Shown here: positions 14,771 through 51,602 of the stretch, piece by piece | Position numbering within the stretch: position 1 is the stretch's first letter | Layout of the letters: every line of letters begins with the position of its first letter | Assembly (NCBI RefSeq): GCF_016925675.1 | Contig: NZ_CP070506.1 | Location: 4,276,501 to 4,340,500, forward strand | From: Pseudomonas hygromyciniae | GTDB taxonomy: Bacteria; Pseudomonadota; Gammaproteobacteria; Pseudomonadales; Pseudomonadaceae | Direction of reading: 5' to 3' | DNA: 64,000 bases | Notes under the pieces: model-generated | The model's database searches: none | Told to the model about the DNA's origin: nothing | What the model saw: only the letters and a program-made list of their open reading frames with translations | Made by a program: the position numbers and the translations under genes

Positions 14771-14860
14771 TGTGGGAGCCGGGCTTGCCCGCGATGACGG
14801 CCTGTCAGCAACCCATTGGCTGGCTGACCCACCGCAATCGCGGGCAAGCCCGCTCCCACA
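14771..14860. repeat. REP doublet
   Basis: Two inverted REP units with cores TGTGGGAGCCGGGCTTGCC and GGCAAGCCCGCTCCCACA face each other in the maf-sppA gap. Confidence 0.85.
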
Positions 14861-21200: not shown

Positions 21201-21424
21201 TGCGTCGTCGCAAGCGTGAAGCCGAGCGTCTGCAGAAAGAAGCCGAAGCAGCAGCGGCGGCGGCCCCGGCCGTAGTCGAGGCCGTTGCGCAAGCACCGGC
21301 CATCGAAGCTGAAGTTGAGCACACTGCCCCGGTCATCGACGAGAACCTGCGTTCCGTTGAAGAAGTGGTAGAGCACAACCCAAAAGCCCTGGAAGAAGAG
21401 CACGAGCCTAAACCCCTCGCCTGA
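18206..21424 (+). CDS. rne: Ribonuclease E
   Basis: RNase E is the main endonuclease for mRNA decay and rRNA/tRNA processing and scaffolds the degradosome. The protein has 1072 residues. The ATG at 18206 gives the family start [19 protein letters not shown]; the frame continues upstream without support. An S1 domain lies near residues 35-120 and the catalytic Asp residues are in [15 protein letters not shown] and IDFIDM. The zinc-link Cys pair is in CPRCNGTG, near residue 404. The C-terminal half is low-complexity: an Arg/Glu/Pro block ([12 protein letters not shown] repeats) about residues 612-735, and an Ala/Val/Glu/Pro block about residues 820-1050. Such tails bind RNA and partner proteins. 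It has a strong terminator right after it. Confidence 0.96.
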
Positions 21425-21440
21425 TTCCAACGGCAACTAA

Positions 21441-21478
21441 AAAGCCCCGCCTGAGCAATCAGGCGGGGCTTTTTTTAT
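21441..21478. terminator. Terminator after rne
   Basis: A 14-bp perfect stem (21441-21454 with 21459-21472, AAAGCCCCGCCTGA / TCAGGCGGGGCTTT) with loop GCAA and a T-run. It ends rne and could also stop minus-strand transcripts. Confidence 0.92.
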
Positions 21479-21499
21479 TCATTCAACGACAGAGATCAT

Positions 21500-21525
21500 G
21501 TGGGAGCGGGCTTGCCCGCGATGGC
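21500..21525. repeat. REP unit interrupted by a MITE-like element
   Basis: TGTGGGAGCGGGCTTGCCCG begins at 21500. The same REP resumes at 21660 (CCGCGATGGC) after the inserted element, giving a direct repeat of 10 bp. Confidence 0.8.
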
Positions 21526-21659
21526 CATCGGTATCTACACAACTTTGCCGCAACACCTAAATCCAGGCAGATAGCTCAGTTGTGGCGATGCGGCGTTCCG
21601 ACAAGCCCGCTCGCCACAGGAGAGTTCGTCAGTTTCTGAAAGTTGTGTAGATACCTATG
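21526..21659. mobile_element. MITE-like element, copy 1 (134 bp)
   Basis: The element ends in inverted repeats: GGTATCTACACAACTTT at the left (21530-21546) and its exact complement at the right (21639-21655), extended to CAT[C/A]GG at both tips, 21 bp with one mismatch. It is flanked by a perfect 10-bp direct duplication CCGCGATGGC (21516-21525 and 21660-21669) and splits a REP unit. A second copy at 48367-48595 in inverse orientation shares about 60 bp of the left end with three mismatches and the right end, but has a different core. It carries no gene, so a transposase in trans is inferred. Confidence 0.85.
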
Positions 21660-21721
21660 CCGCGATGGCGGTAGAGAGAGGCGCGGTGAGCTTGAGGCCG
21701 CCATCGCCGCCAAACCAGCCC

Positions 21722-22300
21722 CTACCTGAATTCCAATGCTTGCGGCACATCCACATCCCACAACACCCCGGGATCACCCACCGGCACCTCCCGAACATCA
21801 GCCTGGGCAAACAGAGCCTTGGCGCCACGATCCCCCGTCAGTTCCATCAAGGCAGGCCCCAATGCCTGGCCAAATGCAACGGGATGGCCCTGCTGGCCGG
21901 CATGCACCGGCACACTGATCCCATCCACGCGCTCTATCACCCGCTCAATGCTCGACGCCTGAATAAACGGCATATCCCCCAACACCACCAGCCAACCCGC
22001 TGCCGGGCCACTGGCCGCCACCGCTGCCGCGATGCTGTCACCCATGCCCGCCGACTCCAGCAGCAGCACTTCGCACCCATGCTCCGTGGCCAGGCGAATA
22101 ACCCCGCTGCACGCAGGGGATGTGACGACCCAACGCCGAGTGATGCTGGCAGGCAGATTGAGCAACACATGCTCGACGACCGGCCGTGTCACCCCATCAC
22201 GCCCCACACAATGAGCCAGCAATTTGTCCTGGCCGCTTTGCGCACGGAACCGGCTGCCCTGCCCCGCCGCCAGGACGATTGCGGTAATCGCACTCGTCAA
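21722..22300 (-). CDS. MocA/CoxI-like molybdenum cofactor nucleotidyltransferase
   Basis: The 192-residue protein is a MobA-like NTP-transferase. Its N-terminus is AIVLAAGQGSRF, the nucleotide-binding loop, followed by a short insertion and DKLLA. Further motifs are VVLGDMPFI and GHPVAFG. Such proteins (MocA type) attach CMP to the molybdenum cofactor for hydroxylases of the xanthine oxidase family. It overlaps the XdhC gene by 4 bp, as last gene of the four-gene molybdenum hydroxylase operon. The role is family-based inference, well supported by context. Confidence 0.85.
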   Translation of the reverse strand: MTSAITAIVLAAGQGSRFRAQSGQDKLLAHCVGRDGVTRPVVEHVLLNLPASITRRWVVTSPACSGVIRLATEHGCEVLLLESAGMGDSIAAAVAASGPAAGWLVVLGDMPFIQASSIERVIERVDGISVPVHAGQQGHPVAFGQALGPALMELTGDRGAKALFAQADVREVPVGDPGVLWDVDVPQALEFR

Positions 22301-48366: not shown

Positions 48367-48595
48367 CATAGGTATCTACACAACTTTCAGAAACTGACGC
48401 CCCCCCCGTGGCGAGCGGGCTTGCCCCGCGCTGGGCTGCGAAGCAGCCCTAAAAAGCCCGCCGCGTTTCTTCAGATAAACCGCGATGGCAGGGTTTAGGG
48501 CTGCTTCGCAGCCCAGCGCGGGGCAAGCCCGCTCGCCACAACTGCGCTATCTGCCTGGATTTAGGCGTTGCGGCAAAGTTGTGTAGATACCGATG
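48367..48595. mobile_element. MITE-like element, copy 2 (229 bp) with 46-bp inverted repeat
   Basis: Ends are the same 17-bp repeat GGTATCTACACAACTTT (48371-48387) and its complement (48575-48591), extended by CATA/GATG tips. It lies in the inverse orientation to copy 1 and shares the end regions (CAGAAACTGAC, and GCCTAAATCCAGGCAGATAGC on the other strand). The core holds a perfect 46-bp inverted repeat, arms 48408-48453 and 48494-48539, which includes REP-like GGCGAGCGGGCTTGCC and a hairpin GGGCTGCGAAGCAGCCC. No clear target duplication was found here. Confidence 0.85.
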
Positions 48596-51520: not shown

Positions 51521-51602
51521 ATCGCAGGCAAGCCAGCTCCCACAGTTGACCGAGTACATCCCTTGGAATGCAGTCAACTGTGGGAGCTGGCTTGCCTGCG
51601 AT
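51521..51602. repeat. Long inverted repeat (REP doublet) with 30-bp perfect arms
   Basis: Arms 51521-51550 and 51573-51602 (ATCGCAGGCAAGCCAGCTCC... and its complement) are perfectly complementary for 30 bp. It lies between convergent pcpS and the sensor kinase. Confidence 0.9.

Follow-up and report, generated by a model that had tools for sequence, protein, structure and literature searches.

A probable IS4-type MITE family that targets REPs in Pseudomonas and whose helper transposase is apparently missing

A 134-bp element of Pseudomonas hygromyciniae (positions 21526-21659, forward strand, of the 64,000-nucleotide stretch analysed here, hereafter the window) is very probably an IS4-type MITE that is moved in trans, takes the tail of REPs as its target and has a helper that is apparently missing from this genome. 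We observed its ends, its target duplication, an empty site, its copy number and its targeting of REPs, as well as IS4-like IS elements elsewhere whose ends are almost identical to its own and which are flanked by 9-bp duplications. REPs are already known as targets of IS elements, ISRm22 included, according to the accessible part of its description (PMC1525189). The family described here adds to the IS4-type MITEs, a known kind of element, a member whose choice of target is unusual and whose helper appears to be absent.

Results

Structure of the element and its empty site

The left terminal inverted repeat, CATCGGTATCTACACAACTTT (21526-21546, forward strand), and the right one, CATAGGTATCTACACAACTTT (21639-21659, reverse strand), are 21 nt each and 95% complementary with one mismatch, exactly as the initial annotation had described them. 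The direct repeats CCGCGATGGC that flank the element (left copy at 21516-21525, read from the sequence; right copy at 21660-21669; both on the forward strand) are identical at 10 of 10 positions, and the left one closes a REP that is complete to the insertion point (21500-21525, forward strand; core GGCTTGCCCGCGAT at 21509-21522), which bears out the annotated perfect 10-bp target duplication within a REP. No gene had been seen inside the element, and its longest stop-free run is indeed 39 codons; an Rfam search of positions 21300-21900 gave no match. The interior contains a REP-like hairpin (GTGGCG...CGCCAC; 21582-21617, no strand assigned), recognized from sequence and fold. A second, inverted and degenerate REP lies at the same site (21700-21725, reverse strand) in a REPIN-like arrangement; it was identified by eye and is unmatched in the motif search. 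Pairs of inverted REP motifs also occur in the window without any MITE, at 14782-14850 and 51521-51602.

The second copy that had been noted at position 48367 does exist: 17-mer search, flank comparison and fold delimit an element of 229 bp with both ends in the opposite orientation (48367-48595), whose interior is a long palindrome with REP-like arms. It has, however, no target duplication, the flanking 10-mers differing at 8 of 10 positions. By eye, duplication tails face each other in its flanks, as after an inversion between two MITEs. Two other copies, at 1368267 and 5562464, likewise show by eye a tail resembling a duplication on either side, the pattern expected from an inversion between copies.

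We used 1101 bp around the 134-bp element as a query against 398 Pseudomonas genomes, 393 of which gave some match; six loci were compared and four relatives aligned. In one relative (G188), both flanks align with hits that overlap by 10 bases, and the alignment contains one intact CCGCGATGGC, so that the right copy of the duplication corresponds to the single copy there. Another (G032) has the same empty site, with one substitution in the 10-mer. Relatives lacking a single copy of the 10-mer had been named beforehand as evidence against the insertion, and both of these genomes possess it. Three further genomes (G236, G341 and G407) are less informative because their right flanks begin further on or far away. 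In Pseudomonas proteolytica (DSM 15321; G436), this insertion is also present, as a longer element, and the window copy is internally shortened compared with the commonest, 229-231-bp form. Because the longer insertion is shared, the insertion at 21526 predates the split from P. proteolytica and the copy is old; it was probably shortened internally after that split. The initial annotation mentioned neither this shortening nor the interior hairpin.

The element thus has the characters of a bacterial MITE: it is short and gene-less, with inverted ends, a target duplication, an empty site and several copies per genome. It differs from a REPIN in that the mobile unit is bounded by 21-bp repeats instead of REP arms.

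Copy number and target choice

Allowing up to three mismatches, the 17-mer of the end occurs four times in the window (two ends of two copies), compared with 0.01 expected. Genome-wide, we found 44 exact matches (21 forward, 23 reverse; none for a reversed-pattern control) and 114 with up to three mismatches (control, 15). From 100 of these 114 places, three of which fall outside resolved copies, at least 43 two-ended and at least 18 one-ended copies were resolved. The two-ended copies range from 117 to 260 bp, with lengths of 230 bp (12 copies), 229 bp (4) and 231 bp (4) being the commonest. Exact 10-bp duplications flank 22 of the 43, a proportion to be set against an exact agreement of 3.3% when left and right partners were swapped, and a further nine have duplications with one or two mismatches. 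Five have inverse-identical flanks and seven have neither, although one of these seven has an exact 9-bp duplication. These values supply the copy count and the duplication length that the initial annotation had proposed to determine. One-ended copies at 2116057, 3154728 and 3723729, and also at locus L052, continue internally as CTATCTTCTTGGTRTGTGTACAT; their interior is of a different type, and no second end was found nearby.

With one exception, the 22 exact duplications correspond to a REP tail, C(T/C/A)GCGAT(A/G)NN, in either orientation, and a REP motif is present on at least one side of 35 of the 43 resolved copies. At up to one mismatch, the REP core is matched at 662 places in the genome, compared with four for the control.

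The sequence CATNGGTATCTACACAACTTT is present in 29 of the 398 Pseudomonas genomes, including that of P. hygromyciniae (control, 0). A search for the ends across genome contigs yielded at least 120 loci, in Pseudomonas species, in Gallionella and Methylococcales MAGs and, as a few single matches, elsewhere. Single 17-mer matches in OM182, Tissierellia, Lachnospiraceae and Ignavibacteriales (2-4 mismatches in 21) were set aside as probable chance matches, by our estimate. In one Planctomycetota (L084) and one Humisphaera (L091) contig, a lone end that matches at 20 of 21 bases lies close to the contig end and may be a further member of the family or a chance match. Among the matches listed, 32 of 48 Pseudomonas and other pairs have exact 10-bp duplications, 30 of which contain CGAT or ATCG, and 16 have no exact duplication of at least 8 bp; of the 10 Gallionella pairs, 8 have exact duplications of 8-9 bp, and of the 4 Methylococcales pairs, 2 have exact duplications of 9 bp; the chance of agreement over at least 8 bp with swapped partners is 1.8%.

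Other Pseudomonas carry the same ends around different interiors, many of them 430-890 bp long. The ends are therefore the constant part of the family, as expected if an enzyme reads them. Larger elements, of up to 898 bp, were considered as autonomous candidates and rejected: the longest stop-free run in the 19 measured is 186 codons, no similarity to a transposase was seen in these loci, and they have nested repeats inside. Long end pairs at locus L096 proved to be an artefact of a match at a contig edge. A nested repeat with GTACATATCCGTT ends occurs in several of the larger elements, with two inverted copies in L056, L228 and L233. Copies with matching ends in other genomes, whose absence from relatives would have spoken against the annotation, thus join the empty sites in two relatives and the exact duplications of 22 of 43 copies in support of its claim of transposition.

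IS4-like IS elements with nearly the same ends

The initial annotation had also suggested looking for an IS with the same terminal repeats, and such elements, IS4-like, 1.36-1.43 kb long and sharing 18-20 of the 21 end bases, exist outside Pseudomonas. A plasmid search with the 21-base end returned three records, one of which is an Acinetobacter plasmid with the ends placed around a 409-aa transposase; an Acinetobacter pseudolwoffii plasmid hit was set aside because the adjacent gene is annotated as IS3 and no second end lies within 5 mismatches. Seven IS elements were measured, and four are flanked by exact 9-bp duplications: that of the Acinetobacter plasmid (1370 bp; 20 and 19 of 21 end bases), two copies in the Gallionella genome G069 (1362 bp; 18 and 18) and one on a Citrobacter plasmid (1434 bp; 18 and 18). 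The copies from Arsenophonus and a Methylococcaceae genome (G073) have both ends, broken genes and no duplication, and the left end of the Serratia copy is degraded.

The one transposase that was scanned, that of Acinetobacter, matches PF01609 (DDE_Tnp_1) above the cut-off and stays below it for the NCBIfam IS4 models (best score 88.5 bits, compared with 160). The YREK residues Y317, R320, E324 and K331 are invariant in all six aligned transposases. Both G069 transposases are 40% identical to the Acinetobacter enzyme. Plasmid-borne relatives were found in Acinetobacter, Arsenophonus, Serratia, Citrobacter, Aeromonas and Methylotuvimicrobium among 76 records, with most of the matches listed below 30% identity; a PDB sequence search with query A1 returned nothing.

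In Gallionella G069, the IS adjoins MITE ends. A palindrome, CCCCTT(G/C)AAGGGG, flanks both the IS and several Gallionella MITEs (L195, L197, L061, L133 and L144); it looks like a counterpart of the REP in another bacterial class. Ends and target are thus largely common to the IS and these MITEs. We detected no interior similarity between the IS and 43 MITEs of P. hygromyciniae or three of Gallionella, which means that the MITEs did not arise from the IS elements found by simple deletion.

The MITE thus shares its ends with IS4-like IS elements (18-20 of 21 bases) and has a duplication of about 10 bp (10 bp here, 9 bp in the IS elements), as an IS4-like MITE should. A relative of the IS elements found presumably moved the Pseudomonas copies. 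Exact duplications are nevertheless 10 bp long in Pseudomonas versus 8-9 bp elsewhere, which means that the Pseudomonas helper may be an enzyme different from the IS4-like one found.

Search for a helper in Pseudomonas

A transposase acting in trans, which the initial annotation had called for, is supported by these findings; the IS elements with nearly the same ends are IS4-like, and none was found in this genome. With the Acinetobacter transposase as query (E ≤ 1e-5), there was no match in the 19 Pseudomonas among 26 genomes, and two of the seven others matched. A six-row transposase profile (E ≤ 1e-20) matched none of the 398 Pseudomonas genomes, that of P. hygromyciniae included, with four candidates scored per genome among the matches listed and no positive genome in the set; in the order Pseudomonadales, it matched 1 of 293 genomes, as fragments. 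Such genome searches miss any plasmid that disappeared during culture and anything that falls into an assembly gap. The two PF01609 matches in the P. hygromyciniae genome (E ≤ 1e-10) are copies of one IS, and this IS4-type element (487 aa, two copies) was rejected as the helper because its ends differ from those of the MITE. PF01609 marked at least 55 places in the 26 genomes at E ≤ 1e-10; in the 30 loci examined, the best single end had 6 mismatches in 21 and no good pair was present, a search that excludes little because it overlooked both G069 transposases. In the Pseudomonas loci examined, no pair of MITE ends that is flanked by an exact duplication encloses more than 900 bp. A co-resident autonomous element with the same ends, which is usual for MITEs although not strictly defining, is present in Gallionella G069, and none was found in the P. 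hygromyciniae genome. Because no helper was found there, an element that has since been lost, or one that visits on a plasmid, most likely spread the family. We infer loss of the helper and not a failure to detect it, and the MITE may have outlived it.

Alternatively, the helper could be a transposase resident in Pseudomonas that belongs to a different family, or to one that has diverged strongly, and still recognises these ends. The 10-bp rather than 8-9-bp duplications would suit such an enzyme, as would the absence of the known group from 398 Pseudomonas genomes. Against it stand the lack of end pairs more than 900 bp apart with an exact duplication in the loci examined and, as a weak argument given the overlooked G069 transposases, the fact that the genome's own PF01609 matches are one IS with different ends. 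On balance, we consider a resident helper unlikely and prefer an IS4-type MITE whose helper is apparently missing.

MITEs within REPINs

Five of the 43 copies sit between a complete REP and its inverse and have no duplication. The adjoining 10-mers are exact inverse complements in all five, whereas random pairs of REP sides agree in 8.4%, and for this reason random inversion between copies was rejected as the general cause of the REP-MITE-REP' arrangement. At 4529452-4529711 (L301), four relatives (G281, G236, G188 and G341) have no MITE but a REP and an inverted REP separated by a few dozen bases of spacer; G032 and G407 have other REP-like pairs at this site, and P. proteolytica has the insertion. 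Because relatives have a plain REPIN there, the MITE at 4529452 occupies the former position of the spacer. Two of the five sites were examined for such a replacement: it was clear at this one, and the relatives were uninformative at 2401276. Most simply, each of the two REPs of a REPIN would have received a MITE, and the two MITEs would then have recombined. That the resulting REP-MITE-REP' unit, in which the MITE replaces the spacer without a duplication, could move again via the host RAYT, so that a MITE with a lost transposase persists on the REP system, is an idea to which we give little credence.

Even less probable is that the element as a whole is of the REP or REPIN type, with the interior REPs, not the ends, as the signal by which the host RAYT (TnpA-REP) moves it. 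REP-like hairpins inside both window copies and the location of most P. hygromyciniae copies in REPs would fit such movement; the boundaries, however, are 21-bp ends with exact 10-bp duplications, and the same ends are common to elements with different interiors. RAYT-type movement is not known to leave a duplication. Spread of the copies through gene conversion or homologous recombination among REPs, in place of transposition, is hardly credible: five copies between inverted REPs without a duplication and three with tails on both sides (by eye) do look rearranged, but the clean empty sites contradict it for the window copy, 22 of 43 copies have exact duplications, and one of these 22 lies away from any REP motif.

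Discussion

The observations are best accommodated by a MITE that consists of two putative transposase-binding ends around a non-coding interior with REP-like hairpins. A DDE transposase of the IS4-like group, supplied in trans, would cut at CAT(A/C/G)GGTATCTACACAACTTT, and the cut ends would join a target site staggered by 10 bp. The target preferred in Pseudomonas is the REP tail, C(T/C/A)GCGAT(A/G)NN, and copies for that reason gather in REPs.

According to the accessible text of a survey of the IS4 family, its members have target duplications of about 10 bp, inverted ends and a transposase with DDE and YREK residues, and some members of the IS4 subgroup, as well as ISRm22, have strong target specificity (PMC2266710). 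The MITE resembles these elements in the size of its duplication and in its inverted ends but has no transposase, and its IS relatives resemble them in DDE and YREK; we assign the relatives to an IS4-like group rather than to a named subgroup. ISRm22, an IS4-family element of S. meliloti, was found within REPs, and copies with unmatched repeats were ascribed to recombination, as far as the accessible text of its description goes (PMC1525189). That element is autonomous, with 6-bp repeats and insertion at the axis of the palindrome, whereas the MITE is non-autonomous, with 10 bp and insertion in the REP tail (PMC1525189, same text).

MITEPsy1 and MITEPsy2 (PMC3189936) and MITEAba12 (PMC6382973) are likewise short and gene-less, with IS-like ends, in the parts of their descriptions that were available. 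Their ends differ from those reported here, being GGAAGGTCTGAAAAAGCC for MITEPsy1 and GGGGGTGTAAGCC... for MITEPsy2 (PMC3189936) and those of ISAba12 for MITEAba12 (PMC6382973). The same excerpts give duplications of 4 bp for MITEPsy1, unknown for MITEPsy2 (PMC3189936), and 9 bp for MITEAba12 (PMC6382973), and contain no mention of the REP targeting that we describe. REPINs (PMC3116915) and the R-family repeats of P. fluorescens (PMC2718517) are also gene-less and intergenic, many with inverted arms, in the available portions of these papers, the former of which credits REPIN movement to RAYTs. The R178 and R200 repeats have published sizes of 101 and 320 bp (PMC2718517, in part), which differ from that of the MITE. 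Open-access literature retrieved, in part as excerpts, for the end sequence or for MITE, REP and IS4 jointly contained no description of this MITE family.

A REP-targeting MITE family is thus patchily distributed in Pseudomonas, occurs also in Gallionella and Methylococcales MAGs and is tied to an IS4-like enzyme group by its ends. With about 60 insertion sites in one genome, it offers material on how non-autonomous elements persist without a found helper. REPs receive its insertions, and at some sites the outcome is a REPIN rebuilt around the insert.
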